Under the pieces are notes generated by a model. The model ran no database searches. It was not told the DNA's origin and saw nothing but the letters and a program-made list of their open reading frames with translations. Shown one piece after another: positions 5,477-20,739 of a DNA stretch of 64,000 nt. The position numbers and the translations under genes were made by a program. The stretch comes from Deltaproteobacteria bacterium (GTDB lineage Bacteria; Desulfobacterota; DSM-4660; Desulfatiglandales; HGW-15). The DNA lies in contig JAFDEE010000001.1 in NCBI GenBank assembly GCA_019310525.1, forward strand, positions 1-64,000, in the 5' to 3' direction. Each line of letters starts with the position of its first letter. Positions within the stretch are counted from its first letter, which is position 1.

Positions 5477-6358
5477 TCAGGGGATGTGAAAGAGTACGGG
5501 ATCAAAGAGGCCCGTGCCGAATAGGTTGCAATAGGGCAGGCATTTGGAGAGGAGCATGAACGTGGTTTTTTCGGTGACGGACGCGGTTTCTTCTCCCAGG
5601 GAATCGAAGTTGCCCCCTCCCTTGGACACGATGATATCGGCACGCTCAAGGAGATCCCTCAGCTCGCCGGAACACCGCTTGAGGGAGGTTCCGGGAAAGG
5701 GGCCCATAATTCCGTTTTCCACCACCTGTGCGACAACCGTGATTCCCGCATCTTCCGCCTCGGTTAGGGTCACGTCGTTCATCGTGGGGATGCTTCTCAC
5801 GACGAAGATCACTTCAAGGGGATACTGGGCCCGGAGGATCTCGATGAGAAGCTTGTCGAAAACGATTTCCCCCGAGTTGTCCCCGAGGTAGACCAGGAGT
5901 TCCGATCTTCCGAGGCGTTCCTTGAAGTCGGCATAGGCCTGCCGGGAGACGGGGACCTGGAGTTGGGCCTTGATCCAGTCCAGGAAATCCGTGGGGTTTT
6001 CCGAAACCATGAGGTCGATCCTGTTTCCCAGGATGGCAAGCTTGATGGCCCCGAAGAGGGGATCCGCATCCTCATGAATAAGGGACCTGATATGGGGCTC
6101 TACCTCGAGTACCCGCTTGTTTTGCTTCCACTTGAGCAAGGAAAAGGGATCCGGGCTGTCCGCAGCCTTCATGATGATCTTCATCACCCCTTCGATGAGG
6201 GCGGGACTGACCACGTTCCAGTCTTCACCCCGGAGTCCGGGAAGTTCCGCGATTCTCCGGTAAAGGCTCCGCATCCTGGTTTCATCCAGCTTGAGGGCTC
6301 TCATCGCCGTTACGGACATCCGCAACACACAGGGGATGCAATCCGGCTTGATAAGCAT
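5477..6358 (-). CDS. DUF89 / ARMT1-like metal-dependent phosphatase family protein
   Basis: A 293-aa protein from the ATG at 6358, which is preceded by GGGAG at good spacing; an upstream in-frame ATG at 6394 is less likely. It starts with a conserved CxxC (residues 7 and 10), and carries the family blocks YLGDNSGEIVFD and SKGGGNFDSL. DUF89 proteins are metal-dependent phosphatases thought to remove damaged or unwanted sugar and cofactor phosphates; the prokaryotic CxxC branch is uncharacterised. It is the last gene of the large minus-strand cluster, about 200 bp after the duplicated-domain gene. A phosphatase next to a kinase-like dikinase could clear a dead-end phosphoester, but that link is inference. 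Confidence 0.85.
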   Translation of the reverse strand: MLIKPDCIPCVLRMSVTAMRALKLDETRMRSLYRRIAELPGLRGEDWNVVSPALIEGVMKIIMKAADSPDPFSLLKWKQNKRVLEVEPHIRSLIHEDADPLFGAIKLAILGNRIDLMVSENPTDFLDWIKAQLQVPVSRQAYADFKERLGRSELLVYLGDNSGEIVFDKLLIEILRAQYPLEVIFVVRSIPTMNDVTLTEAEDAGITVVAQVVENGIMGPFPGTSLKRCSGELRDLLERADIIVSKGGGNFDSLGEETASVTEKTTFMLLSKCLPYCNLFGTGLFDPVLFHIP

Positions 6359-6561
6359 GGAAAATCTCCCGATCCTTGGGTTCTTCCGATGCACTGCACC
6401 GGGTTGGGGTTACGCCCGGAGGCGTTTCGTAATCTTCCGCCCAGGCTTAAGGCAAACGCCCTTTTCATCGTCGAGCATCCGGGAAAGACACCCTTTTTCC
6501 TAAGGATCCTGCCGGTGGGTGATAGAGACGATCGTCGGGGTTGGACCGGGGCGGGTGGCCC

Positions 6562-7221
6562 TTAGAAAGTTTTGAGCATCTCCCTCATCAGATAGGGCAC
6601 CTCGATCCTCCCGGTCGGGGCCAGGATCCGGCTGCTGTAATCCGTTGCGTATCTTGTTTTCAGCTTGCGGACCAGGCGCCTGAACTCCGAGGTGTCGATC
6701 GCCTTGGCTATGTCCACAATATTGCTCGCCGTGCCCTCCGCCAGCACCCTGGGGCCTGAACCGATGATGAGCCTCCAGCCCCCGGTGATGGGAACCCCCA
6801 GTTCCTTCATGGCCGGGAGACACTCTTCCTTGACAAAATGATAGTGCTCCTCTTCCATGCCGGGCAGGACGTTGTAATACTGGTTGAACTTCCACACGCC
6901 GGTCTGGATTCGGTAGGGGCCTTCCTGGATCCGTCCGGATGGGGCCCAGACCCTGCTGTCGTACTTCCACACATACTGGAGAAGATTGTTGAAGATCGTT
7001 CGATATTCCTTCCCCGATAGGGTTTTCTTCAGATTGTCCACATTTTCCACCTCGGCCACCGCTACGATGCGGGGGCCCATACCGACCGCCACGTAATACC
7101 CCCCGACCAACCGGAGCCCCAGACCTTCCAGGGTGGGGTTGTATTTCTCGAGAATGAAGGTGGAATAATCGTCGAACTTATTGGGCATCACATCCCAGTA
7201 TTGGGAAAAAAGAATGGGCAT
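6562..7221 (-). CDS. Duplicated alpha/beta-domain protein, paralogue 1 (unknown function)
   Basis: A 219-aa protein, not recognised as a named family. It is an internal duplication: residues 1-101 and about 108-212 share a pattern of QYW/QYY-(D/N)V, then LG..(I/L).GG, GxGPR(I/V), and Y.SR(I/V)xAP(S/T)GRI. The roughly 100-residue repeat, with strands around the QYxDV and GxGP motifs, resembles a ferredoxin-like dimeric alpha-beta barrel unit (NIPSNAP, EthD or ABM type), but that is a fold guess. Paralogues lie at 12956 and 13678 in the same cluster. The start at 7221 is set by GGAGG seven bases upstream. It is cytosolic by sequence (no signal) and follows the dikinase ATP-grasp gene by 49 bp. 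Confidence 0.8.
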   Translation of the reverse strand: MPILFSQYWDVMPNKFDDYSTFILEKYNPTLEGLGLRLVGGYYVAVGMGPRIVAVAEVENVDNLKKTLSGKEYRTIFNNLLQYVWKYDSRVWAPSGRIQEGPYRIQTGVWKFNQYYNVLPGMEEEHYHFVKEECLPAMKELGVPITGGWRLIIGSGPRVLAEGTASNIVDIAKAIDTSEFRRLVRKLKTRYATDYSSRILAPTGRIEVPYLMREMLKTF

Positions 7222-7270
7222 GTTTTCCTCCAAGGTCCCGTTCGGGTGAAAAATGGGTGGTTTCCCGGCG

Positions 7271-8299
7271 TCATCCCATCTTGAATACACGCGTCATGAG
7301 TTCCGCCAGGTATTCGGAGTTCTTTTCTTTTTTCTTCGAATACTTCGCGGGCCGCGTCTGGACCCAGAAGAGATTATCCGGGAAGGGAAGATCGAGGTCA
7401 ATGACCCATTCCATGTCCTGGGGAACGCCGAAATGGGCCTCGACCCTTTTCGCGATACGTGCGATCTCTTCCAGTTCTTCTTTTTCCAGGCAGGGCTTCT
7501 CGACCATTTCCGCCGGCACCCTTGCCGTGCCGGTTCCGTCCTGGGTATAGACCACCATCTTGGTCTTCCGGTTAATGGTACTGTGGACCCGGCCCGTCTC
7601 CTTGTCGATGATAAAGGTGTCAGGGGTGATCTCCCCGCTTACCACGCTCTCCCCGAGGCCCCAGTTCCCCTCCACCACGATCTTGGAAAGATCCCCTGTG
7701 GTGGGCTGGACCGTGAGCGCGACCCCGGCGGACTTGGCGTTGACCATTTTGAGGACGGCCACCCCGATGGGCGCCTTCTCCATCTCCATGCCCTTTTCGA
7801 TCCGGAAGGCGATGGCCCGGGTGGTGAAAGCACTTCCCCAGACCTGGATCACCTTCCGCGCGAGTTGGCCCTTGCCCCTCACGTTCAGGTAGGTTTCCAT
7901 CTGCCCCGGCATGCTCACCGCGCCGCTCGAACGGGTAGCGACGGCTGTATTTTCCTGGCCGACCTGTTCGCAGAGTTCGTCATAGTAGTCCCAGAGTTCC
8001 CGTTTCATATCTTCGGGCATCTTCTTGGATTCAATAACCCCCCTGATGAATCGGCTGGCCTCGATTTGCTTTTCCACCTTGTTCAATTTTCCCTGGTTTT
8101 CGGTGACGTACCGCCTGATCTCGTCCCCGGCCCCGGTTTCCTCCATAAAACGCTCATATCCGTCTACGGAGACGGCGAATCCCGGGGGTACCTTCATCCC
8201 CAAGTGGGTCATCTCTCCCAGGTTGGCGCATTTTTTGCCGACAAGATCGTTGTGTTCGCTTCGGAGTTCACTTAGCCGATAGAGCCATTTCTGTCCCAT
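7271..8299 (-). CDS. Phenylphosphate synthase beta-like subunit (PEP-synthase N-terminal ATP-grasp domain)
   Basis: A 342-aa protein corresponding to only the nucleotide-binding domain of PEP synthase / pyruvate phosphate dikinase: ANLGEM and VPPGFAV near the N-terminus, RSSGA, EGNWGLGE and, near the end, a W-V-Q-T-R-P block. In phenylphosphate synthase of Thauera this piece is a separate 40-kDa subunit that uses ATP to pyrophosphorylate the histidine subunit. The ATG at 8299 has GGGAG at ideal spacing; the ATG at 8305 is too close to it. The gene lies 65 bp after the phosphohistidine subunit, giving the same two-gene split. The substrate phosphorylated here need not be phenol. Confidence 0.85.
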   Translation of the reverse strand: MGQKWLYRLSELRSEHNDLVGKKCANLGEMTHLGMKVPPGFAVSVDGYERFMEETGAGDEIRRYVTENQGKLNKVEKQIEASRFIRGVIESKKMPEDMKRELWDYYDELCEQVGQENTAVATRSSGAVSMPGQMETYLNVRGKGQLARKVIQVWGSAFTTRAIAFRIEKGMEMEKAPIGVAVLKMVNAKSAGVALTVQPTTGDLSKIVVEGNWGLGESVVSGEITPDTFIIDKETGRVHSTINRKTKMVVYTQDGTGTARVPAEMVEKPCLEKEELEEIARIAKRVEAHFGVPQDMEWVIDLDLPFPDNLFWVQTRPAKYSKKKEKNSEYLAELMTRVFKMG

Positions 8300-8364
8300 A
8301 TCCATGCTCCCAAAAGGACCGGCGCCCGAGGCCCGGTGGTCCGGGCGCCCGGCCAGGATACGAG

Positions 8365-10053
8365 TTACTTTTCCTTGTCAAGAATATAGACGGTTCCCAG
8401 GTTGGCATCCACCTTGATTCTCTGCCCCGATTTGATCTTCACCGTTCCCTCGAAAACGTTCATGACCACGGGGATACCATATTCCCTGCCCACGATGGCC
8501 GCGTGGGAAAGGCTGGCCCCACGGTCCACCACCACGCCCTTGATCATCGAAAAGATGGGAGTCCAACTGGGAGAGGTGCTGGCGGCCACCAGAATGTCGC
8601 CTTCCTTGACGAGGTGAAGTTCGTCCTCGTTCATGATGACCCGGGCCGGTCCCTCCGCCACTCCCGGGGATCCGCAGGTTCCGTAAAGGTCGGCCTTGAG
8701 TTCCGGGCGAACCTGGGGCATGGAGCCCACCACGACCTTCAGGGCGATGGGATCGTTGGATTGGACGAGTACCCCCATGGCCTGGTCCAGATCGAATCCT
8801 TCCTTGAGAAAGGCCGGGGGATTGGGGTTCTTTTTCCATTCCTCCCATTCGGCCTTGCGGCGGTCCACGATATAGCGCAGGTTGAACTGGTCGGGATTGA
8901 TGGCGGCCCTTCGAACCTCGTCGGGAATGAGGAAAAAGATATCCTCGTGATGATCGATGGTACCCGCCGAAACGAACCGCCGCCCGATACCCAGGGCGCT
9001 TCTTCTCATCATGGCATGGGTGTAAAGGTCCAGGTAATGATCGTGTTCCTCGCTGAACACCCCGCTCTTCTGGGCCAAACGCATCAATTGTTCGAACCAC
9101 CCGCGTTGTTCAGGCGATACCTTTTCGAGGACTTCCCTTTCGGCCGCTTCCCGCTCCTCGGTAAGCTTTTTGCGTTCTTCATCCAGGTTGAAGTCTCCGC
9201 CCTTCAGCAAAAACTGCTTCACATTCGCAAGGGCCGGGGCGGGGTCTTCCACCCACGTGGGCAGGTTGATCTCCGACATGCGTTGCATCCTCCAGCCGTC
9301 CTCGTTCATGAAGGCCATGAAGTCTTCCATGAAGGCCCGGCCCTTCTCCGTACTCTCGAGTCGTTCTTGGATCTGTTCCGGTTCGCTTTGCAGGAACTCT
9401 TCCGTCAGGCCTTCTTCTCTCGCACGCTTCGAGAACTCCCACAAGCGCCGATCCACCTGGAAGACCTTGTTGTCGAAGCCAGAGACAAGCTTGTGAAACA
9501 CCGGGGAAGTGTCATCGATTCCCGCAAGGTCGCGGCACATGTTTTCGAAGAGGATATAGGCCGTGTAGGTCCCGTACATCATGTACATGTGAATTTCCCA
9601 CATTCGGCGGCAGGTATTGATGGTCTCCTCGAAGTTTTCCAGCAATTCGATGTTGCTCGCCTTCTCAAGATCCAATTTTTTTAGGTTCTCGTATCTTTCG
9701 AGGATTTCCTTCAGGAAACCCTGCCACAGCCCATCATAGTCTTCGATGAAGGGAAGAATGGCTTCGCGGAACTTGGCTTCTCTCCTCTGCCGCTCCTCTT
9801 CGCTTTTGACCAGCAGGAGCGTCAGGTATCCCCCTCCATTGTGAAAGCGCCAATCCCATCCCTTCACGGTGGGGAGGCTCAACTTCTCGGCGCCGTATTG
9901 CATGCCATGACGGCAGAAATTGATCCAGAACCATCCGAACATGGGCGTCCAGGGCGGCACGGAATGAGTGCCGTCCAGGAACCAGGCCGGAGATTGCTCG
10001 AAATCGTTTTCGGGATCAAATTCCAAGCCCGGGACCACATCGTAAACCTTCAT
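8365..10053 (-). CDS. Phenylphosphate synthase alpha-like subunit (phosphohistidine swivelling domain)
   Basis: A 562-aa protein. Its last 100 residues are the PEP-utilising mobile domain, with the phosphocarrier histidine at about 517 in ASLSHAAIVGREYGIPVV-like context. The first 400 residues are mostly helical and Trp/Glu-rich and match the substrate part of phenylphosphate synthase alpha rather than the PEP/pyruvate TIM barrel of true PEP synthase, which is absent. Expected chemistry: ATP + R-OH giving R-O-phosphate + AMP + phosphate through a phosphohistidine. A perfect AAGGAGGG ribosome binding site precedes the ATG. No UbiD-type phenylphosphate carboxylase is in the window, so carboxylation of a phenol is not supported by context. 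Confidence 0.85.
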   Translation of the reverse strand: MKVYDVVPGLEFDPENDFEQSPAWFLDGTHSVPPWTPMFGWFWINFCRHGMQYGAEKLSLPTVKGWDWRFHNGGGYLTLLLVKSEEERQRREAKFREAILPFIEDYDGLWQGFLKEILERYENLKKLDLEKASNIELLENFEETINTCRRMWEIHMYMMYGTYTAYILFENMCRDLAGIDDTSPVFHKLVSGFDNKVFQVDRRLWEFSKRAREEGLTEEFLQSEPEQIQERLESTEKGRAFMEDFMAFMNEDGWRMQRMSEINLPTWVEDPAPALANVKQFLLKGGDFNLDEERKKLTEEREAAEREVLEKVSPEQRGWFEQLMRLAQKSGVFSEEHDHYLDLYTHAMMRRSALGIGRRFVSAGTIDHHEDIFFLIPDEVRRAAINPDQFNLRYIVDRRKAEWEEWKKNPNPPAFLKEGFDLDQAMGVLVQSNDPIALKVVVGSMPQVRPELKADLYGTCGSPGVAEGPARVIMNEDELHLVKEGDILVAASTSPSWTPIFSMIKGVVVDRGASLSHAAIVGREYGIPVVMNVFEGTVKIKSGQRIKVDANLGTVYILDKEK

Positions 10054-10186
10054 GTTTCCCTCCTTACTTGCATGGGGTTAAAAGAAAAAGGACGCGGCCA
10101 GACTGCTTTCTCGATCATCCGGCGTTGGTTTAAAACTGGGAGACCAGGCGCTCCGGGAAGAGGCGAGGGTTGAAATCGGAGGAGAT

Positions 10187-10426
10187 TCAGGCGGGCGGCA
10201 GGCGACGGGCAAAAACCACCCGGCCGCCGGATATAGGGTGCGTGATCGCGGGTTCGAGGGTCGATGGAACCTCTTTCAGCCGCAGCCTGGATGCAGTCTT
10301 AGGATCCTTTTCTTCCTCAACGTGGAGGAACAGCGCCAGAACCTGGTCCCCAACCGGGGACCTCGAAACGGATTGGATTGTCACCTCCTTTCCTGGAAAC
10401 CGCAAGAATACGCCCACCCGGCCCAT
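10187..10426 (-). CDS. Possible beta-grasp (MoaD-like) small protein without C-terminal diglycine
   Basis: A candidate 79-aa gene. The ATG at 10426 follows GGAGGG by 11 bases. About two thirds of codons end in G or C, as in the neighbours. The pattern (strand, turn, strand, helix, and a final GGRVVFARRLPPA) can be laid over the end of MoaD/ThiS proteins, where a strand is followed by PPVAGG. Here the reading frame stops right after PPA with no Gly-Gly. The second AOR in this window also has a MoaD-like gene directly downstream, which is the main reason to call this. It may instead be a decayed copy or chance ORF. Confidence 0.4.
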   Translation of the reverse strand: MGRVGVFLRFPGKEVTIQSVSRSPVGDQVLALFLHVEEEKDPKTASRLRLKEVPSTLEPAITHPISGGRVVFARRLPPA

Positions 10427-11029
10427 TGTCTTTCCATCCCTCCGGGGAGTGCGTGGATGGGGAGGATCTATTTCCCATGGGAGTGGCCTTGAACGGTATC
10501 GGAATGGGCATTTACCGGCAGCCTCCAAAAGATTCGTTTCTCCGATGGGGGCTCCCTCGGAAACCCCTTCGGTTTTTCACCCAGCGGGGTGCGGCGCCAT
10601 GGAAACAAAAGGGTTTTATTGAACCCAAATTATGCGTGAATGCTTGCCCGCTGGCTGTTTGGCGGTCTTGCCTGTCTCGGGCGCGGCCTGTCCAAGGAAG
10701 GGTAAAGGGATTTTTCCGAAGCGGCCTATTTTGGCTCTGGAGCAGCCTGCCTGCCGCAGGCAGGGAGAGCGGAAGAGCCAAAATAGGCAGTGAGCGGAGC
10801 CATGGACGGCGTAGCGCTTGCCCGCTGCTGTCTGGCGGGAACGTAGCGGAGGAAATATCCTTTTACCCTTCATCTATCGGGTGCTGCCAGGATGCTTTAA
10901 CATATTGTAATAAAGATAAATTTCATTATTAATTAATGTATAATTTGGGTTTACTGAAAACACTCGCCGTGGATCTCCCCCCTTTAAGAGGATCCACAGG
11001 ATCTTGTCTTTCCGGCATGTCGCCCCTCG
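10427..11029. other. Intergenic region holding a family-2 repeat
   Basis: About 600 bp between the first AOR and the small MoaD-like candidate. Most of it is the repeat element at 10622-10951. The rest shows no gene. If AOR and the dikinase genes are co-transcribed, the message runs through this element. Confidence 0.6.
10622..10951. repeat. Family-2 MITE-like repeat, long copy
   Basis: A 330-bp element bounded by inverted AACCCAAATTAT ends (10622-10633 and its complement at 10940-10951). Inside are a near-perfect inverted pair, GCCTATTTTGGCTCT and its complement (10722-10790), flanking a CTGCCTGCCGCAGGCAG core, and a GCGGAGCCATGGACGGCG block also found at the window's left edge. Its right third matches, in reverse complement, the 152-bp copy at 49516-49667. 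It encodes no transposase, so it would need one in trans. Confidence 0.75.
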
Positions 11030-12868
11030 TCAAAGGGCCTTTTCCATGTCTGCCAGGACTTCGGGAATTCCCAGGGCTTCAAGCCGTTCTTTGGAAGGTA
11101 TCCCTTCTCGAGTGTAACCGAGGTCTCGGTAATATTCATCGAGCAGGCCCTCAAGATTTTCCACCCTCTGGCCCGTCGCCGGTCCGGCGTTCTTTAAGGG
11201 CTCGGCCGTCATCCGTTCAGGAAGGGTGTCGTCCCTCCTCCTGAACCCTTCCCGCACGTTGAAGCACCTCTCGATACATAGAATCCGCTCCCCCGCCCGA
11301 AGGAGATTTTCCGGATCCCCAAGGGATTCAAGGCCTGTAGCGGCCTCGAGGTATTCGGCGTACATCTCGAGGTTCAACCCCGTGTTTCCAAAGGTGCAGG
11401 CGATAAGGGAGTCCTCGACGGCCTGTTCCATCTGGACCCTTGCGATATCCGCTCCCTTTCCTTTTTCCGTGTAAGGGTCGACCTTTCCGGAGAGTTCATC
11501 CCTGGGCCGGCCGTACATGTGACTGCCTCCGATATTGGATGTGGCCATGCTGAGGGCGTATCCCTTGACACCCCTTGGATCGTACCCCGGAAGCTCCAGG
11601 CCCTTGATGTGCATGGCAAAGGGTTCGGCTCCCTCTCCGAGCTCAACGGCGGCCCTCAGGACCCCTTGTCCCAGGATTTGTCCGATTCCCTCCCCCTTGC
11701 CGATCCGTTCAATCAAGGTGAAGGCCGCCCTCCGGTCCCCCCAGGTGAGGGTCAGGCCGCCGGTCTGCAGGGGAGTGAGGATGCCTCTTTCAAAGAGTTC
11801 GAAGGCGAAGGCCAGGCAGACACCGGTGCTGATAGTATCAATGCCGTAGTAATCACAAAGGGCATTGGCGTCTATGATGAAGGACTTGTCCGTGATGCCC
11901 AACAGAGGCCCGAAGGCGTAAATGGATTCGTATTCCGGTCCGTCGATCCGGGTTCCCTCCAAGGGGCCGGTGGCGACATCCCTCATTCCGCCGCAACGGG
12001 TCATGCAGAGGTAACAGCCCGCCTTGGCCTTTTTCAACCGGAAGAACTTCTGCCCCGAGATTTCTTCGATGTTCTCAATGCTTCCCTCCTGGAAGTTTCT
12101 AACCGGCAGAATTCCCAGATTATCCACGACGGTCGTGATGTAAGGGGTCCCTAGGGTATTCATGTTTTCTCTTCTGGGGTGCCTTTTCAGAATTTCTATC
12201 TGCTTCTCCAGAAGGATTCGGAAGCGGTCCGCATCATGGGGAACGTATCTTTTTGCAGGCACTTTGATGGCCACGGCCTTCAGGTTTTTGGCTCCCATGA
12301 CGGTTCCAAGGCCTCCACGGGAGGCGGTGCGCTCCCCCGATGCGATCACGGCGTAGCGGATCCCTTTCTCCCCTGCTGGTCCGATACAGGCGGACTCGGT
12401 GCCCGGCCCGTGCCTTTTCTTAAGCAGGAGCTGGGTGCGCCTGGTGTCCAGTCCCGCCAGGTCCCGGGCGTCCATGAACCGAGGGCCGCTCTCGTCGATG
12501 AAGAGGTAAGTGGCCTTCTCCGCCGCTCCCTCGATGATCATCAGGTCGTAGCCTGCATGCTTCATCCAGGGCCCGAAATTTCCGCCCGCGATGGACCGGA
12601 AGATGGTCCCCGTGAGGGGGCTCTTCGAACTCACGGCCCATTTTGAGAAACCCTGGATCCCCGTGCAGCCCAGGACGCCTATGGACATGATGAGCTTGTT
12701 CCTCGGGCCGAGTGGATCGATTCCGGGGGCGATTTCGTCGTAAAGGTATTTAGAGCCTAGCCCCCTTGCCGACAGGTATTTCTCGAGATGTCGCGATGGA
12801 ATTTCTTCTTCCTTGAAGGTGGATGCCGACAGGTTGATCCTCAGCAGTTTTCCTGCGAATGTGCTCAT
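11030..12868 (-). CDS. Aldehyde:ferredoxin oxidoreductase family tungstoenzyme (AOR-1)
   Basis: A 612-aa protein, standard AOR length. It has the CxxCxxxC [4Fe-4S] motif at C285, C288 and C292 and a fourth cysteine at C491, almost the same positions as in Pyrococcus AOR (288, 291, 295, 494). It also has the tungstopterin-binding regions around RGLGSKYLYDE and SRGGLGTVMGAKNLKA. AORs oxidise aldehydes to acids with ferredoxin, or reduce acids in reverse, in the cytoplasm. The start follows a GGTGAG-type site. It sits 87 bp after the paralogue-2 gene in the minus-strand cluster. The substrate is unknown. Family-level function is secure. Confidence 0.93.
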   Translation of the reverse strand: MSTFAGKLLRINLSASTFKEEEIPSRHLEKYLSARGLGSKYLYDEIAPGIDPLGPRNKLIMSIGVLGCTGIQGFSKWAVSSKSPLTGTIFRSIAGGNFGPWMKHAGYDLMIIEGAAEKATYLFIDESGPRFMDARDLAGLDTRRTQLLLKKRHGPGTESACIGPAGEKGIRYAVIASGERTASRGGLGTVMGAKNLKAVAIKVPAKRYVPHDADRFRILLEKQIEILKRHPRRENMNTLGTPYITTVVDNLGILPVRNFQEGSIENIEEISGQKFFRLKKAKAGCYLCMTRCGGMRDVATGPLEGTRIDGPEYESIYAFGPLLGITDKSFIIDANALCDYYGIDTISTGVCLAFAFELFERGILTPLQTGGLTLTWGDRRAAFTLIERIGKGEGIGQILGQGVLRAAVELGEGAEPFAMHIKGLELPGYDPRGVKGYALSMATSNIGGSHMYGRPRDELSGKVDPYTEKGKGADIARVQMEQAVEDSLIACTFGNTGLNLEMYAEYLEAATGLESLGDPENLLRAGERILCIERCFNVREGFRRRDDTLPERMTAEPLKNAGPATGQRVENLEGLLDEYYRDLGYTREGIPSKERLEALGIPEVLADMEKAL

Positions 12869-12955
12869 CTCTTTCTCACCTTGATCGACGTTTTTACCCG
12901 CCGCGATCCGGCCTTCCGGGTTTCGCCGCCTTTGGAATATCGTTTGGTGCGGGTT

Positions 12956-13579
12956 TCATCGGTTGATATGCCCGGATGGAACAAGGATCTTGCACCCGTA
13001 ACAGGAGACCAATCCCAGCAGTTTGAGGGTCATTTCCCGGTACGCCGGATCCTGGAGCATTTTACCGATGGTGGTGATTTCTTCTACGCGGCCTTCGGCG
13101 ATGATATGGGGAGTGGAACCCACGGCCACGTACCATCCTCCCAGCATTTCCAGGCCGAAGGATTCCAGCCCAGGCATCTGCTCTTCTCGCTCGAAGTCCT
13201 TGAAGGCATAGAAGTCCTGTGGATTGACGTTGTAATGCTGATTGAATTTGTATCCGTGTTCGATCTCAACGGGCTTTGCGGGGATGACTCCGGTCGGTAC
13301 GAGCAGTTTTGAATGATAGTTCTCCACAAGGCTCAGGAGTTTTCGGCGGAGTTGAATGAAAGATGGAGCAGTGATGAGTTTCTCCACATCCTTTATGGCC
13401 CTGGAGACCCCTTCGGTGATGAAGGTGGGGCCTTCCCCGGAGGCCACCCGCCAGGATCCGGTGAGCATCATGAGTCCCGTATCGTTGATCCGGGGGACGA
13501 ATTCTGAGGAAAAAAAGTCGTCAAAAGGACCGTCTTTTCCCTTCAGGACATCCCAGTACTGAACCAATTTTACCGGCAT
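12956..13579 (-). CDS. Duplicated alpha/beta-domain protein, paralogue 2 (unknown function)
   Basis: A 207-aa protein built from two about 100-residue repeats (1-105 and 107-207). Repeat 1 has QYWDV, GSWRVASGEGP and KLLVPTG. Repeat 2 has QHYNV, GGWYVAVGSTP and KILVPSG. The same landmarks recur in the paralogues at 6562 and 13678, giving six homologous domains in one cluster. No catalytic residue is obvious, but an invariant aromatic/Asp pair near the start of each repeat and the small-residue GxGP loop are candidates for a ligand pocket. The ATG at 13579 has GGGAGG at good spacing; a longer upstream frame is not supported. Confidence 0.8.
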   Translation of the reverse strand: MPVKLVQYWDVLKGKDGPFDDFFSSEFVPRINDTGLMMLTGSWRVASGEGPTFITEGVSRAIKDVEKLITAPSFIQLRRKLLSLVENYHSKLLVPTGVIPAKPVEIEHGYKFNQHYNVNPQDFYAFKDFEREEQMPGLESFGLEMLGGWYVAVGSTPHIIAEGRVEEITTIGKMLQDPAYREMTLKLLGLVSCYGCKILVPSGHINR

Positions 13580-13677
13580 GGATGCCTCCCTTCCCTGAAT
13601 TTTCCCCTTCAGGGATGAGAATCTCCCGGAAGAAGGAATTTCGGGGAATTCACGGTTTTCGGGGTCATTGTCTCCCA

Positions 13678-14295
13678 TCAGGGGAGCAGCCCCGAAGGCA
13701 TGAGGATCTTGCTCCCGAATCCATTTACCATGGGTAGGAGCTTGGCGGTGAGACGCCTGTAAGTCTCGCTGCCGATGGCCTCCAGGATTCGCTTGGGATC
13801 GGTGCAGGATCCCTCGGTTACGATGTTCGGACCCGGCCCGATAGCGACGTACCAGGACCCGATCATCTTGATGCCCAGACCTTCAAGGGCGGGGATATAT
13901 TCATTTTCCATGAAGGCTTCGTAAGTGTCGTATCTGTCCGTGATGACATCGTAGTGGTGGTTGAACCGGAAATTGGTATGTTCGGGAAGGAGGCTTTCCA
14001 CGCGGCCCGTCGGGACCAGGATCTTGGTGCGGTAATTGGTGGAAACGAAGTGCATAAGCCGGTTGAGCTTGATGAACTCTTCCTGTTCCAGCAAGGCATG
14101 GACCTGGGCCATAGAGTCCGCCACGCCTTCCAGGATGTGGAAAGGGCCTTCCCCGGATACTGCGTACCAGGAGCCGAGGATTTTCAGAAGACCGGTGTCG
14201 TTGATCCCCGGGATATAGTTCTTGGAGAGGAAATCCCCGAATTCCTCCCGGTGTTCTGAGAGGACATCGCAGTACTGGATGAATTTGACGGTCAT
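13678..14295 (-). CDS. Duplicated alpha/beta-domain protein, paralogue 3 (unknown function)
   Basis: A 205-aa protein, closest in layout to paralogue 2, whose start lies 98 bp downstream of its stop. Repeat 1 carries QYCDV, GSWYAVSGEGP and KILVPTGR. Repeat 2 carries HHYDV, GSWYVAIGPGP and KILMPSG. There is no signal peptide, so it is cytosolic. A GAGGTGGAG ribosome binding site precedes the ATG. A tandem pair plus a distant third copy suggests subunits of one hetero-oligomer or substrate variants. The family assignment is by internal pattern only; a dimeric alpha-beta-barrel fold is my inference. Confidence 0.8.
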   Translation of the reverse strand: MTVKFIQYCDVLSEHREEFGDFLSKNYIPGINDTGLLKILGSWYAVSGEGPFHILEGVADSMAQVHALLEQEEFIKLNRLMHFVSTNYRTKILVPTGRVESLLPEHTNFRFNHHYDVITDRYDTYEAFMENEYIPALEGLGIKMIGSWYVAIGPGPNIVTEGSCTDPKRILEAIGSETYRRLTAKLLPMVNGFGSKILMPSGLLP

Positions 14296-14486: not shown

Positions 14487-15239
14487 TCAATGCATGGCCC
14501 GCCCGCCGTCCACCAGAATGGTCTGGCCGGTGATGAAATCGCTCTCGGGGGAGGCCAGGAAAACGGCGGCGCCCGTAAGGTCCTCGGGACGTTCCAGCCT
14601 CCGCAAGGGGGTCTTGGAGGTATCGTACTTGGCCACGTCGGCCAGGCCGCGGCTCGCTTCGGTATCCGTAAATCCGGGGGCTATACAGTTGATACAGATG
14701 TTGTGGGGTCCCAGTTCGACTGCAAGGGCCCGGGTCAACCCGATGATGCCTCCCTTGGAGGCCACGTAGTGGGCGAAACCGTGGGATCCTGTAAAGAAGA
14801 CCTCGGAGGCCAGGTTCACGATCTTCCCGTATCCCTGTTCTTTCATGTAGGGAAAGACCGCCCTGGCGCACAGAAAGGCCCCCTTGACGTTGACCGCCAT
14901 GACCAGGTTCCATTCTTCAAGGTCGATTTCCTGGAAGGGTCTCCTGCGGATGCCGTCGTAGACGGCCGCGTTGTTGATCAGAATATCGATCCGCCCGAAG
15001 GCTTCATAGGCGGCTCTGGCCATGGCCAGGGTATCCTCTTCGCGGGAAACATCGGCCTGGAAGTCCACGGCGTCACCACCCATTTCCCGGATCAGCCTCA
15101 CGGTCTCCCGGAGATTGTCCAGATCCCTTCGGGTGACCACCATCACGCGGGCGCCTTCCCGGGCCATTTCAAGGGCGAAGGCCCTGCCGAGCCCCTTCGC
15201 GCCCCCGGTCACTATGGCCGTTCTGTCCTTGAGCCGCAT
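14487..15239 (-). CDS. Short-chain dehydrogenase/reductase (classical SDR)
   Basis: A 250-aa classical SDR. It has the TGGAKGLG dinucleotide-binding loop (residues 11-18), NNAA, an active-site YVASKG (Tyr and Lys), and a PGFTDT segment after the catalytic strand. Such enzymes interconvert alcohols and ketones with NAD(P)H. It lies 16 bp after the first FAD oxidoreductase, so the two are probably co-transcribed. The exact substrate cannot be read from sequence; FabG-like activity is possible but the context points to a catabolic or hydrophobic-substrate role. Confidence 0.9.
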   Translation of the reverse strand: MRLKDRTAIVTGGAKGLGRAFALEMAREGARVMVVTRRDLDNLRETVRLIREMGGDAVDFQADVSREEDTLAMARAAYEAFGRIDILINNAAVYDGIRRRPFQEIDLEEWNLVMAVNVKGAFLCARAVFPYMKEQGYGKIVNLASEVFFTGSHGFAHYVASKGGIIGLTRALAVELGPHNICINCIAPGFTDTEASRGLADVAKYDTSKTPLRRLERPEDLTGAAVFLASPESDFITGQTILVDGGRAMH

Positions 15240-15255: not shown

Positions 15256-16929
15256 CTAATACTCTCTCCCCTTTTCCTCCCAGATCCTGGGCAGGTTGAA
15301 ATCCTCCACTATCACCTTAAAACAGTTGTAGGAACTGCCGCGCCCGATGCCCCCGCAAGAGTGGAGATTGGAAGAGCAGATGTACATATTCTCAACTCCG
15401 GGGATACGGTAGTTGGAGATCTCGGCCAAGGGGCGAAACCGGTCCTGCTGGGAAAGCATCATGGCGCCCTCCACCCAGCCGCCCTCCTTCATGTCGGGGT
15501 GGCGATAGGTGACGTCCAGGGGCGTTTGAATGTTGTGGGAGATGACATTGTCCCAGGTCATGTTGGGGGCATAGATCTGCCAGTCCTTGAGGGCCCGGTC
15601 CACGATTTCCCGTTTCAGCTTGAGCCATTCACGCTCGGAAAAGAAACGGTAAGGTGGGGCGAATTCCTCAATGAGAATGGTATGCTTGCCCTCAGGAGCC
15701 CTGTTCTTGTCCCAGATGCTGTCCGGCGCCGTGAGCAGGTACATATGCCCGGGCCTGGGGATTCCCTGCGTGAAGATATCCGACATGTAATTGTAGGCCA
15801 TGTAGTCTTCGTCCTTGGGGCCCATGTAAAGGCGGGGCTGCTCCCCCAGGTCGGGGTTGAAGCTCTTGGCCTTGTAATCGGGAAGCTCATGGAGGGCCAC
15901 GTTACCCCAGAATATCTGGGATCGGTCGTAGTCGATGTTTTTGATGCGATGGGCGAGCTGGTCGGAGAGTTTGGTATCCCTGAGAATCCGGAGCATGGTT
16001 TGAGGTACCCCCAGGTCGCTCACCACCAGTTTTCTGGCCTCGATTTGGGTGCCGTTGACCAGCTCGATCCCCACGGCCCTCCCCCCTTCGAACAGAACCC
16101 TGTCCACCTCGCTTTCCACGAAGAATTGTCCACCCATGGAACTGAAGGACCTCTGAAGGGCGTGGGTGATGGCGTGGGTGCCTCCTGAGACGATGGAAGC
16201 TGATTCAAGGGAGAGCATGAGTCCAAGGGTGTGGATGGCCAGATAGGCCCCCATTACGTCCACCGGGAAACACCCGGAGGAGGTTTCGATCGCCCTCATG
16301 AAAAGGACGCGCATTTCCGGGCTCTCGAAGAGGTCCCGGGCGAACTGGATGCCGTTCATGAAATGCCAGCGGGGATCGAACCCGTATTTTTCGTCCGTGA
16401 ACAGTTCCTCCAGGGCGTTGGGAACCCCCCAGGGAGTGGGCGGGCTGTAGCGGTATTTCCTGAAGGCCTTGCGCCACTTTTTCTCATACCGCTCCGTGAT
16501 CCACTCGTAAGTGTCGGCGTCTCTCTTGGAGAAGCGGGCGATTTGGTCGTACGTCTTCCTGAAATTCTCGTTGGAGAATTCCTCCTTGCCCGTTTCGGGA
16601 TCCACCACCCGAAAGGCGGTATACCCCACGAAGCAGGTTTCGTCCGGATAGACCATGGCCTCGTTTCCTTCGGGAAAGACGTAATGGAGGCCGAATTTCC
16701 GGAGATTGAAGTCATGGTAGGCCGGGTTGCCGAACATCCGGGTAAAGTGGGCACATGGATTCTGCACGAATGCTGGCGCAGGCAGTTCGTCACCGCAGGC
16801 CCCGCCCCCGAGTTCGTGGAGCCTCTCGAAGACGGCTGTTTCCAGGCCGGCGTTTTGCAGGTAGTTGGCGATAATGGTGGCGTGATGCCCCCCTCCGATC
16901 ACGACAGCATCGAAACTCATGTCGGCCAT
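15256..16929 (-). CDS. CrtI-like FAD-dependent oxidoreductase, copy 1
   Basis: A 557-aa flavoprotein of the phytoene desaturase / retinol saturase-like amine-oxidase superfamily. The N-terminal Rossmann motif is present in variant form, GGGHHAT (12-18), followed by a GGGACGDEL segment. The C-terminal FAD region has NMYICSSNLHSCGG. The fold usually acts on C=C bonds of hydrophobic substrates (desaturation, saturation or isomerisation). AAGGAG lies upstream of the ATG. It is a diverged paralogue of the gene at 17410, separated by the 125-aa protein gene; together they may form a complex or act in sequence. Substrate unknown. Confidence 0.85.
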   Translation of the reverse strand: MADMSFDAVVIGGGHHATIIANYLQNAGLETAVFERLHELGGGACGDELPAPAFVQNPCAHFTRMFGNPAYHDFNLRKFGLHYVFPEGNEAMVYPDETCFVGYTAFRVVDPETGKEEFSNENFRKTYDQIARFSKRDADTYEWITERYEKKWRKAFRKYRYSPPTPWGVPNALEELFTDEKYGFDPRWHFMNGIQFARDLFESPEMRVLFMRAIETSSGCFPVDVMGAYLAIHTLGLMLSLESASIVSGGTHAITHALQRSFSSMGGQFFVESEVDRVLFEGGRAVGIELVNGTQIEARKLVVSDLGVPQTMLRILRDTKLSDQLAHRIKNIDYDRSQIFWGNVALHELPDYKAKSFNPDLGEQPRLYMGPKDEDYMAYNYMSDIFTQGIPRPGHMYLLTAPDSIWDKNRAPEGKHTILIEEFAPPYRFFSEREWLKLKREIVDRALKDWQIYAPNMTWDNVISHNIQTPLDVTYRHPDMKEGGWVEGAMMLSQQDRFRPLAEISNYRIPGVENMYICSSNLHSCGGIGRGSSYNCFKVIVEDFNLPRIWEEKGREY

Positions 16930-17019: not shown

Positions 17020-17397
17020 TCAACCCTTCAGGCGCGCCAGCGGGTTGACGGCCTCATTGGCGGCGGGAGCGGGTTCGGGTTTCGGTGGTACGGCTGGTTT
17101 CGCCTTTTCCCCCGGTGCCGTTTCAGAGACCGGTTCCCCAGGGGCCTTCGGAAAGAGCGAGTACCTCCCGAATATCAAGGCCATCAATGCCTTCCAGATC
17201 ACCGAAGGCTTGAGCCCGATGAGGATCGCCTTGCGCATGTCCTTTGGTCCCATGTACACTTTGATGGTCCAGTGCAAGGGCTGGGTGGCCTCCATGGTCA
17301 CTTGAAGGACCTGTTCACCGTCAAAGCGGGTCTTGAAAAGTTCCTTCAGGTCGGCCACCATCACCGTCTTGCCCAGACCCGTGGATTGGACCTTCAT
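17020..17397 (-). CDS. Small protein of unknown function between two FAD oxidoreductase genes
   Basis: A 125-aa protein that I do not recognise. Residues 1-80 are a compact mixed alpha/beta segment with a moderately hydrophobic stretch (about 56-75, AILIGLKPSVIWKALMALIF). Residues 85-115 are Pro/Ala/Lys-rich and likely disordered. It starts after a clear GGGAGGAT ribosome binding site and lies 12 bp after the FAD oxidoreductase copy 2 gene, so it is certainly in that operon. The amphipathic middle could attach the flavoproteins to the membrane or serve as a lipid-carrier module (sterol-carrier-like), which is only a guess. Confidence 0.75.
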   Translation of the reverse strand: MKVQSTGLGKTVMVADLKELFKTRFDGEQVLQVTMEATQPLHWTIKVYMGPKDMRKAILIGLKPSVIWKALMALIFGRYSLFPKAPGEPVSETAPGEKAKPAVPPKPEPAPAANEAVNPLARLKG

Positions 17398-17409: not shown

Positions 17410-19032
17410 CTAAAGCAGGCCGAGTTCCTCGGCCCGGATGATGGATTCCGGCTTTTTCCACCACTTCTCGATGCCGTAGTCCTCGGCGATTCGGTTGGCG
17501 GCGTTGTAACCGTTGGCCAGCAGCACTGTCCCTCCCGGGTAGGTGCAGGATCCGCAAATGTAGAGGTCCTTGATCGGCGTGGCATATTCCGCGCAGTGCT
17601 CATTGGGCCTGAGGTATCCCATCTGGAGGGGAAGGTAGGCCCCCTGCTTGTAGGAACCTTCCCGCATATCCACGAACTTGTTGTGGATATCCTTCGGGGT
17701 GGTAATGTAACGCCACATGATAGTCTCTTCGTTCACGTTCGGGACGTACTGCCGGAGCTTGGCGAGGCAACGCTCTGCGATTTCGTCCCGGATGTCGTAC
17801 CACCGGTCCGCTCCGCCGTCGGCCAAATGGTAGGGGGCATGGCAGGAAATGAGACCCGTGTGTTTCCCCGGAGGGGCCTGGGAGGGATCATGGAGTGTCG
17901 GGAAGCAGCTGTTGAACCCGGAATCCCTCAATTCGCCTCGCTTGATGGCATCCTGATGGGCGATGAGTTCTTCATAGGATTCGTAGCCGAACAGGTGGAT
18001 GAACGAACCCGCCACCTCAGGGTTCTTATCGGCGGCCTTGAACCGGGGGGCCTCGAACAGGGCCGTGTGCACATGGAAAAAGCTGGATTTTTCCCACTTC
18101 CAGTCCTTGATCCGGGTCACCAGGGCCGCTTCAAGGTTTTCCTCTCCCACGAGATCCAGGAAGGTCTGGTGGGGATTCAGGGTGCTGACGATGAATTTTT
18201 CGGCCTCGTAATAGTAGCCGTCCTCAGTCTCCACGCCCTTGGCCCGGCCGTTCTCCAGGACGATCCGGGTCACCGGCTTGGGCCCGATGATCATGCCTCC
18301 GTTCCTGTAAATGACCTTGCTCATGAGATGGGCCAAGTGGTGGCTGCCGCCCACCACCAGGCGGTAGTTGGCCGCTCGATTGATATAGAGCGGAACGAGA
18401 AAGCCCAGGCCCTCCAGGTCGTAGTCGAGGCCCCACATGGTAGAGGCGTACAGAAAGAGGGTCCGGACATGTTCGTTTTCGAAGAGTTCCTCCACGATGC
18501 TCTTGGGAGACATGGCCTGTAACGCCTGGAGATCTCGTCCGATCTCGTGGTTTTGCATCTTGGTCATGGCCTCCATGGCCGGATGTGGCGGAGAGTAAGT
18601 CGCAGGGGCGATGAAGAGGTCCATGTATTCCTTGAACCGTGCCGCGGCCTTCACGTAGGTCCGGGCGTCTTTCTCGGAGAACTGGGCTATGGATTTGGCA
18701 GTTCGTTCGGGATCCTGATGAATGCAAAGCGAACGGCCGTCCAGGAGGGACAGTGACATCACCGGGTCCGGGAAGATGAATTTCAGGTCGTAGAGGGTTT
18801 CCATCTCGTACTTGAAGTCCTGGAAAAAGGGGGCATAGTCCACCATGGGGATATAAATGGCGTGGGTGTTGTGGATGAAGGTCGGAATCGTTATGTGTTC
18901 CGAGCACAACCCCCCTCCCATCTCGAACCGCCGTTCCAGCAAGAGGATTCTCTGGCCTGCTTTTGCGAGGTAGGCAGCGACCAGGAGACCGTTGGGTCCG
19001 GCACCTATGACAATTCCATCGTATTCAGCCAT
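17410..19032 (-). CDS. CrtI-like FAD-dependent oxidoreductase, copy 2
   Basis: A 540-aa protein with a canonical GAGPNGL FAD-binding motif (residues 10-16), an ERR...GGGLCSE segment and a C-terminal DLYICGSCTYPGG block typical of the phytoene-desaturase-like superfamily. It is the promoter-proximal gene of the minus-strand cluster, starts after GGAGGATGCC, and is transcribed divergently from the LysR gene 121 bp away. It pairs with the paralogue at 15256. These enzymes act on hydrophobic alkenes or cyclic enones; the actual substrate is unknown. Confidence 0.87.
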   Translation of the reverse strand: MAEYDGIVIGAGPNGLLVAAYLAKAGQRILLLERRFEMGGGLCSEHITIPTFIHNTHAIYIPMVDYAPFFQDFKYEMETLYDLKFIFPDPVMSLSLLDGRSLCIHQDPERTAKSIAQFSEKDARTYVKAAARFKEYMDLFIAPATYSPPHPAMEAMTKMQNHEIGRDLQALQAMSPKSIVEELFENEHVRTLFLYASTMWGLDYDLEGLGFLVPLYINRAANYRLVVGGSHHLAHLMSKVIYRNGGMIIGPKPVTRIVLENGRAKGVETEDGYYYEAEKFIVSTLNPHQTFLDLVGEENLEAALVTRIKDWKWEKSSFFHVHTALFEAPRFKAADKNPEVAGSFIHLFGYESYEELIAHQDAIKRGELRDSGFNSCFPTLHDPSQAPPGKHTGLISCHAPYHLADGGADRWYDIRDEIAERCLAKLRQYVPNVNEETIMWRYITTPKDIHNKFVDMREGSYKQGAYLPLQMGYLRPNEHCAEYATPIKDLYICGSCTYPGGTVLLANGYNAANRIAEDYGIEKWWKKPESIIRAEELGLL

Positions 19033-19093
19033 GGCATCCTCCTTTTCGACGAAAGCAGACGTGGTACGTGCCTTTCAGTGTTCGGCTTTTCAG

Positions 19094-19123
19094 TTGACTT
19101 GTCAAAACAATTGTTTTTATAGT
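19094..19123 (+). promoter_or_regulatory. Putative lysR promoter with an internal palindrome
   Basis: TTGACT (19094-19099) and TATAGT (19118-19123) are spaced by 18 bp and face the LysR gene. The spacer contains a perfect 14-bp palindrome, AAAACAATTGTTTT (19104-19117), and an overlapping TTGACTTGTCAA. A LysR-type regulator commonly binds such a dyad between divergent genes, so this may control both lysR and the flavoprotein operon. Confidence 0.6.
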
Positions 19124-19153
19124 GCCATAAGCGTTCCTTATGGGCCTTCCGAG

Positions 19154-20089
19154 ATGCAAATCAATCTCAATCAACTCAGGGCATTCTACCTTGCGGCAAG
19201 GGAAAGGAGCATCACCCGGGCCGCGGATATCCTCTGTATCACCCAGCCTGCAGTCACCATGCAGGTCAAATCCCTTGAGCAGGCCCTCGATATCAAGCTT
19301 TTCAGGAAATACGGGAAGGATCTCCGGCTGACCGAGGTCGGGCACGTCCTTTTCGATTATGTCGAGAAGATCTTCGAGATCGTGGATGAGATGGAATTCG
19401 TCCTGAAGCGTTACTCCGACCTGTCCAGGGGATCCCTCGTCCTGGGAACGACCCGAAGCTTTGCCCGACACCTTATGCCCCGTCTTCTCTCGAGGTTCCA
19501 GGAACGCTATCCCGGCGTCAAGATTTCGCTCAAGGTGGGAAGCAGTCAAGAAATAGCCGACGGCCTCATGGCCTTTGAATATGATCTGGGCATCATCGGC
19601 CGCCTCCCTCACAGCGACAAGCTCAAGGTCATCCCCTATACCCGGGAGGAGTTCTGTCTGATCACGCCACCGCAACATCGGTTCGCCGGGATGAAGTCCG
19701 TCTCCCTCAAAGACCTGAAGGACGAGCCGATCATCATCCGGGAAAATGGCTCCGGTTCACGGTACGCCATGCTTTCACTTCTTGAAACCCACGGTATCAC
19801 GCCATCAGTGCTTGTTGAGGCGGGTAGTGTGGAATTCATCAAGGAATACGTCATCAAGGGGAAGGGCGTCTCTTTTCTATACAAACCGGAAGTTGAGAAG
19901 GAGGCAATGCAAGGACTGCTCCATTGCGTGTGCCTTAAGGAGGGTCCCATTTACATCCAGACCGATATCGTCTATCCCAAGGATGTAAACCTCTCCCCCC
20001 CGCCCAGGCCTTCCTGGAACTGGCCAGGGAAAAAGATGCTTGAAGATCTTCCCGTCATGGCCCTTGCCAACAAAGGAAGTAGTTTTTAA
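19154..20089 (+). CDS. LysR-family transcriptional regulator
   Basis: A 311-aa LysR regulator. The winged helix-turn-helix occupies residues 1-60 (LNQLRAFYLAARERSITRAA, QPAVTMQVKSLE), followed by a periplasmic-binding-protein-like effector domain to about 290. The ATG at 19154 was chosen because the family fold begins at once; a longer frame from 18992 overlaps the divergent promoter. It probably activates the divergent minus-strand cluster in response to a pathway substrate or intermediate. It resembles CbbR/CysB-like members only at family level. Confidence 0.9.
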   Translation: MQINLNQLRAFYLAARERSITRAADILCITQPAVTMQVKSLEQALDIKLFRKYGKDLRLTEVGHVLFDYVEKIFEIVDEMEFVLKRYSDLSRGSLVLGTTRSFARHLMPRLLSRFQERYPGVKISLKVGSSQEIADGLMAFEYDLGIIGRLPHSDKLKVIPYTREEFCLITPPQHRFAGMKSVSLKDLKDEPIIIRENGSGSRYAMLSLLETHGITPSVLVEAGSVEFIKEYVIKGKGVSFLYKPEVEKEAMQGLLHCVCLKEGPIYIQTDIVYPKDVNLSPPPRPSWNWPGKKMLEDLPVMALANKGSSF

Positions 20090-20106: not shown

Positions 20107-20739
20107 ATGAAGGAAAGAAATTCATATGAGGATTGGTCCGGCTTCCTTTCGGTACTCCTCGAAGAAGCGGAGCCTTATTTGAAGGTCAGGGGGGATCTTC
20201 TTCATGTCCGTGTTTCCCACCGTTATGCTCTCATGCTGATGGAAAAGGAGGGCGGGGACAAGCGTATCATCGAGCCCGCCGTTCTGCTGCATGATGTGGG
20301 ATGGTCATGCTTGAGTCCCGAAGAACTATCCCATGCTTACGGGGCGCGGGCTGTCGGGGCGGAGGCCAAGAGGTTGAACCGGATACACGAGAGGGAAGGG
20401 GCCGAGATCGCGGCTCGTATTCTCACAAAGCATGGATACGACCCCAAGTTGATCGAGACGATACGGCGTATCATCGAACGGCACGATTCGTCTCTTTCGG
20501 TATCATCCGTTGAAGATGCGATCGTAAAGGACGCGGATAAGCTTTGGCGCTTTTCAGGGGAAGGTTTTTGGGTGGAAATCGAGCGGCAGGGCCTGGAGCC
20601 GGAAGAATTATACCTATACCTCGGAAAGCGTATCGATTCCTGGTTTTTTACTCCAACCGGCCGGATCCTTTCCAAAGAAGAATGGGAGAGGAGAGGAGAA
20701 GAAGTGCGGTCCGGTCGGGAAAAAAGGGGTGGGCTCTGA
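20107..20739 (+). CDS. HD-domain phosphohydrolase family protein
   Basis: A 210-aa protein with an HD metal-binding set: His in SHRY (38), HD in LLHDVGW (62-63) and Asp in KDADKLW (142/144). It lies 17 bp after lysR with a GGAGAAG site, so it is probably co-transcribed with it. HD proteins hydrolyse nucleotides or other phosphoesters; the substrate is not predictable. It may be linked to the cluster through lysR or simply adjacent. Confidence 0.8.
   Translation: MKERNSYEDWSGFLSVLLEEAEPYLKVRGDLLHVRVSHRYALMLMEKEGGDKRIIEPAVLLHDVGWSCLSPEELSHAYGARAVGAEAKRLNRIHEREGAEIAARILTKHGYDPKLIETIRRIIERHDSSLSVSSVEDAIVKDADKLWRFSGEGFWVEIERQGLEPEELYLYLGKRIDSWFFTPTGRILSKEEWERRGEEVRSGREKRGGL

Follow-up and report, generated by a model that had tools for sequence, protein, structure and literature searches.

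A double-barrel protein conserved beside two-component dikinases in Desulfobacterota: a candidate dikinase accessory in a possible oxygen-free, cre-like pathway

The characterised two-component dikinases PpsAB, PasAB, CreHI and HpeHI phosphorylate phenols or aniline (PMC6114531, PMC7500099, PMC12167813). All four are split into an ATP-grasp subunit and a swivel subunit with a conserved histidine motif, and no double-barrel partner has been reported for any of them. In the cre pathway of Corynebacterium glutamicum, CreJEF is an oxygen-dependent P450 methyl hydroxylase, CreG and CreC are alcohol and aldehyde dehydrogenases, and CreD is a phosphatase. Phosphorylation by CreHI begins 4-cresol degradation in this organism, and CreJEF, CreG, CreC and CreD complete the route (PMC9618137, PMC8796525). 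Here we describe a gene cluster in a 64,000-nucleotide stretch of a Desulfobacterota genome (the window), whose dikinase has the same split organisation but, unlike these systems, adjoins a gene for a double α/β-barrel protein, dA. We propose that dA is an accessory of the dikinase and that the cluster runs an oxygen-free pathway resembling cre, a combined reading that we hold tentatively, at slightly below an even chance; the accessory role on its own is probable, judging by conserved gene neighbourhood.

The window dikinase is encoded on the minus strand by PpsB (7271..8305), the ATP-grasp subunit (PF01326, 1.6e-89, with further matches to PEP synthase ATP-grasp domains in the PDB), and PpsA (8365..10053), the swivel (phospho-His) and acceptor-binding subunit, which bears the motif GASLSHAAI (PF00391, 3.5e-22). 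Residues 230-559 of PpsA match the rifampin-phosphotransferase-type chains 5fbs/5hv1. With ATP-grasp and swivel on separate subunits and the His motif present, the pair has the architecture of a two-component phenolic dikinase. PpsB lies 49 bp from dA, and PpsA comes next after PpsB.

This arrangement recurs across the phylum. A survey of 395 genomes, mostly draft, yielded 57 full-length members of the double-barrel family, together with 25 PpsA orthologues counted as close (identity of 64% or more). In raw counts, which are not corrected for relatedness, a family member is found no more than 5 kb from 21 of the 25 PpsA orthologues, nearly always 1.1-1.7 kb off with PpsB between, and PpsA lies within 5 kb of 40 of the 57 family members. 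Most double barrels of a sister clade, NIP2, are found 140-350 bp upstream of a second type of PpsA, that of the UbiD loci, which is only ~30% identical to the window class. Several NIP2 loci (L077, L080, L113, L114, L121) carry genes for UbiD, CoA ligase and hydroxybenzoyl-CoA-reductase-like proteins, not all in each, and this set is known from anaerobic phenol degradation (PMC6114531). The same sort of double-barrel partner is thus retained by two dikinase types that are distant from each other. The sequence-only reading of this DNA had proposed a specific role for three duplicates around an aldehyde:ferredoxin oxidoreductase (AOR) and a dikinase; for dA the conserved neighbourhood supports such a role, with the dikinase, and not the AOR, as the constant partner.

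A third component of such a dikinase has a precedent in function, though not in family. The gamma subunit of phenylphosphate synthase is a CBS-domain protein and is unrelated to the double barrels. It is similar to them in size, at 24 kDa, and is an extra component that stimulates its dikinase (PMC6114531). A profile scan of dA, dB and dC gave no CBS match. Separately, L071 and L072 have a CBS protein next to the cluster. We found no report of a link between NIPSNAP proteins and a dikinase in the literature on phenylphosphate or phenol degradation. The published text on the D. anilini clusters for aniline and phenol, which were also considered, shows no double-barrel gene. The anaerobic benzene gene clusters of two 2026 papers were set aside: they hold glycolate-oxidase-like complexes, with no mention of limonene dehydrogenase, NIPSNAP or AOR.

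Several further features of the dikinase loci were recorded. The same genome has a second dikinase locus (L108, G000:C19:29467-33224) with two tandem PpsA-like genes, a PpsB-like gene and a further AOR. One more dimeric α/β-barrel protein, a single-domain ABM protein of ~106 aa that the window does not have, stands beside dA in eight loci (L065, L068, L070-L074, L119), and a Tm-1-like UPF0261 protein (PF06792) occurs near both dikinase types (L065, L066, L067, L077, L080, L111, L113, L121). Five distant family members (L027, L028, L030, L031, L082) were seen by eye to adjoin a gene for an acetyl-CoA-synthetase-like protein; such enzymes split ATP to AMP.

The window holds three double-barrel genes, dA, dB and dC, all on the minus strand, and they are the only family members in the whole genome. 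The sequence-only reading had located all three correctly, but the open reading frames listed for dA and dC were too long. Because homologues begin there, with M-[PTS]-[IV], and because GGAGG and GGGAGG respectively stand just upstream, dA (219 aa, 6562..7221) probably starts at ATG 7221 rather than 7290, and dC (207 aa, 12956..13579) at ATG 13579 rather than 13678. dB (205 aa) occupies 13678..14295 and starts at 14295. The N and C halves lie at ~6928-7221 and ~6601-6894 in dA, where a C-terminal helix follows the C half, at ~13999-14295 and ~13681-13974 in dB, and at ~13283-13579 and ~12959-13255 in dC. Comparison of the six half-proteins in all 15 pairs by Smith-Waterman gave z = 19-43, with 25-45 identities over 92-100 columns; in the 300 shuffles run per comparison, no score came near the real one. 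The six ~98-aa domains are therefore homologous well beyond chance, as had been read from their shared motifs, two copies of a roughly 100-aa domain per gene. The motifs themselves generally hold, with exceptions: dB has H for the leading Q in its second half (HHYDV), dC has GSTP for the G-x-G-P loop in its second half, and two halves carry T or C in place of the S in the closing motif.

AlphaFold2 models of dB (pLDDT 92.4, pTM 0.85) and dA (pLDDT 91.6, pTM 0.84), built on 15 and 33 aligned relatives, each show two beta-alpha-beta-beta-alpha-alpha-beta units, with one additional C-terminal helix in dA (residues 207-218). The proteins are thus predicted with high confidence to be single-chain double barrels of two fused ferredoxin-like domains. 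In a Foldseek search of the PDB with the dB model, the best neighbours were proteins in which two domains of the dimeric α/β-barrel type are fused, in keeping with the fold first guessed from the letters alone. The whole-length matches 3f44 (E 2e-10) and 2pgc (E 4e-9), at TM 0.65, are double-domain barrels of ~205-210 residues, like dB in length and fold, yet at 12% identity to it they offer no function that could be transferred. Coproheme decarboxylases and chlorite dismutases were matched as well, identities overall being 7-13%. The abundance of these among the PDB matches would be the reason to regard the double barrels as heme enzymes of that fold, but TM-scores of ~0.6-0.67 at ~10% identity speak for likeness at the fold level only. 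We rejected this explanation as extremely improbable, since 50 aligned relatives share no conserved histidine and the proximal heme ligand is missing.

At the sequence level, dA, dB and dC stay below the cut-off of every Pfam and NCBIfam family; none of them matches NIPSNAP (PF07978) even at E up to 1, and none matches EthD (TIGR02118). PDB sequence searches with dB and with the family profile returned no plausible relatives. Weak profile matches do appear among 33 relatives, to NIPSNAP in 12 (best 3e-7) and to EthD in four (best E 3e-4), and one relative from a phenol cluster scores 23.1 against NIPSNAP, where the cut-off is 22.3. The double barrels form a remote branch of the dimeric α/β-barrel superfamily, with NIPSNAP nearest and EthD also a distant relative. 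They share the predicted fold per domain with NIPSNAP, EthD and ABM (PF03992), and differ from all three in having two domains per chain and in their linkage to dikinase genes. The seeming fusion of one relative to other domains (G296) proved to be no more than a frame left open in GC-rich DNA.

Muconolactone isomerase and polyketide cyclases share the dimeric α/β-barrel fold, which is often catalytic. It is conceivable, if unlikely, that dA, dB and dC are themselves catalysts, such as isomerases, cyclases or hydratases, acting on pathway intermediates rather than helpers. Three divergent copies per cluster would suit three substrates, and 33 relatives keep seven invariant positions, E162, W149 and Y87 among them. 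Most of these invariant residues, however, are Gly, Pro or aromatic, without a conserved His, Cys, Lys or Asp among them, and E162 alone looks catalytic; moreover, the same type of protein occurs in phenol clusters, whose known route needs neither an isomerase nor a cyclase. Of the roles first suggested, a substrate-binding scaffold or an isomerase, either could be the specific, dikinase-linked role that gene neighbourhood supports for dA.

The three copies are not equivalent. In a tree of 52 rows, dB and dC form one pair (support 100/99), and dA groups with dikinase-linked proteins from several other families of the phylum, near NIP2. The pair was seen in one further genome only: L020, a 5.7-kb contig of a deltaproteobacterial metagenome-assembled genome with the gene order SDR-dB-dC-AOR-PpsA (SDR, short-chain dehydrogenase/reductase), holds a separate orthologue of each. 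Because dB and dC each have their own orthologue there while dA groups with proteins of other genomes, the split between dB/dC and dA is old, and no recent triplication took place. The first idea of three retained duplicates holds in part, dB and dC forming an ancient, diverged pair seen in one other genome. Searching plasmids with dB gave no match. Near the C-terminus, a T-x-R motif that all 38 rows counted from the two dikinase-linked clades share is absent from dB and dC, which also lack the C-terminal element of dA. This motif, together with the added helix in dA, is a candidate docking element.

On the reading that dA assists the dikinase, PpsB would transfer the β-phosphate from ATP to the swivel His in PpsA, and PpsA would hand it on to a hydroxyl group on an organic acceptor; by analogy with PpsAB, CreHI and HpeHI, this acceptor is most likely a phenol. 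dA would most likely bind the hydrophobic acceptor or the phospho-product within its barrel, or close the acceptor site of PpsA. dB and dC, which adjoin the AOR and lack the docking element, probably bind a later intermediate; this is the weakest part of the proposal.

The genes that accompany the dikinase bear on its substrate. The recurrent cassette is FAD540-s125-FAD557-SDR-PpsA-PpsB-dA. In the window FAD540 (17410..19032, minus strand) carries the covalent-FMN motif F-x-x-N-T-H-A, reading PTFIHNTHA where homologues read PGFLHNTHA; the reference motif GF[LR]x[NS][TL]HA, expected in both subunits of an enzyme of the CtmAB type, is known from limonene dehydrogenase and delta-24 sterol desaturase (PMC11061730). 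FAD557 (15256..16929, minus strand; Amino_oxidase/CrtO-type matches) has Cys in place of the flavin-binding His; here the flavin may be cysteinyl, or may not be covalently attached. Homologues of FAD557 were seen to keep this Cys (PGF-x-x-N-x-C-A-H) exactly at the flavin-binding His site of the limonene dehydrogenase motif. The two resemble limonene dehydrogenase CtmAB and the sterol desaturase in being an adjacent, divergent pair of CrtI/CrtO-type flavoproteins and in the covalent-FMN motif of the FAD540 homologues, and differ from CtmAB in the Cys of FAD557 and in the absence of a CtmEF ferredoxin pair from the cluster. Between the flavoprotein genes lies s125 (17020..17397, minus strand), a small conserved protein without a family match in profile scans, whose homologues, at 26-42% identity, occur in about a dozen loci.

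The SDR (14487..15239, minus strand; PF13561, 4e-63), present in most cassette loci, is a candidate alcohol dehydrogenase. Beyond it, the window has a tungsten-type AOR (11030..12868, minus strand; PF01314/PF02730), whose best PDB matches are the aldehyde oxidoreductases 9g7j (2e-113) and 1aor (8e-110). Only a partial match to BamB was obtained (2e-56), and we rejected a class II benzoyl-CoA reductase, with BamB-type dearomatisation, on this comparison with true AORs. Other loci carry instead a protein that matches the molybdenum aldehyde oxidoreductase of Desulfovibrio (D. gigas type) from end to end (2e-164). Of the 20 loci that exceed 11 kb, eight have the AOR only, seven the Mo enzyme only, none both and five neither (Fisher p 0.010, with kinship ignored), and within one genus the two are exchanged in an otherwise identical cassette (L071 in G160, L072 in G378). 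Both enzymes oxidise aldehydes, and an aldehyde-to-acid step is therefore implied. For removal of phosphate the candidates are a DUF89/ARMT1-like metal-dependent phosphatase gene (5477..6394, minus strand; PF01937, 1.3e-45; in several loci) and an HD-domain phosphohydrolase gene (20107..20739, plus strand; PF01966, 2.6e-8; 11 loci). A divergent LysR-type regulator gene (18992..20089, plus strand; 12 loci), annotated by eye, probably starts downstream of 18992. The LysR, HD phosphohydrolase, DUF89, ABM and ETF genes each occur in subsets of the cassette loci.

The cre pathway is among the nearest known systems: its dikinase is homologous in type to that of the window, and every other type of step has a window candidate. 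Unlike their cre counterparts, these candidates are independent of oxygen, and apart from the dikinase they belong to other families and have putative functions. Because each cre function has an oxygen-independent candidate in the cluster, a cre-like pathway without oxygen can be proposed. A phenol would be phosphorylated by the dikinase, its methyl group hydroxylated with water by the limonene-dehydrogenase-like flavoprotein pair, the alcohol oxidised to the aldehyde by the SDR, the aldehyde oxidised to the acid by the AOR, or in other genomes by the Mo aldehyde oxidoreductase, and the phosphate finally taken off by the DUF89 or the HD phosphatase.

A terpenoid or sterol-like substrate is a serious rival to a phenol, since limonene dehydrogenase and delta-24 sterol desaturase, the characterised enzymes closest to the flavoprotein type, act on such compounds (PMC11061730). 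The flavoprotein pair would then oxidise or desaturate an allylic position, and the dikinase would phosphorylate an alcohol for phosphate elimination, in the manner of anaerobic cholesterol breakdown. Sterolibacterium is known to carry out an ATP-dependent dehydration by way of a phosphate ester (PMC7411048). That activity yielded mainly ADP, however, where a dikinase would give AMP (PMC7411048), limonene dehydrogenase requires an acceptor of positive potential (PMC12583861), and the characterised two-component dikinases use phenols or aniline. We consider such an isoprenoid pathway rather unlikely. Alternatively, the double barrels might serve the flavoprotein hydroxylase, as EthD does with its P450 system, a thought prompted by the EthD matches among the relatives and by the flavoprotein genes of the same cassette. 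It seems improbable: dA always stands at the dikinase side of the cassette, and in L077, L080, L113, L114 and L121 the sister clade occurs with PpsA/PpsB and no flavoprotein pair was found nearby.

Several points weigh against the proposal that dA is a dikinase accessory in a cre-like pathway. Four of the 25 close PpsA orthologues (G031, G035, G172, G367) have no double barrel at the usual place, three of them on contigs under 10 kb, and 17 of the 57 family members have no PpsA nearby. Purified HpeHI works without a third protein (PMC12167813), which, together with those four orthologues, indicates that dA is not strictly required. It is chemically difficult for a flavin to take hydride from an aryl phosphate at its methyl group, and the reactions may therefore follow another order than the one proposed; the flavoprotein relatives act on terpenes and sterols rather than phenols; and dB and dC are left without an explanation of their own.

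Two-component dikinases open several routes of aromatic degradation, and a double barrel conserved beside two separate lineages of them is a concrete candidate for a helper of these enzymes. That Desulfobacterota-type anaerobes possess an undescribed, oxygen-free counterpart of the cre pathway, in which a phosphorylated phenol has its methyl group oxidised by a flavoprotein of the limonene-dehydrogenase type, with a dedicated double barrel as the third functional component of the dikinase, is possible though doubtful. If true, methyl oxidation of a phosphorylated phenol without oxygen would give anaerobes a route into alkylphenols that are unsuited to p-cresol methylhydroxylase.

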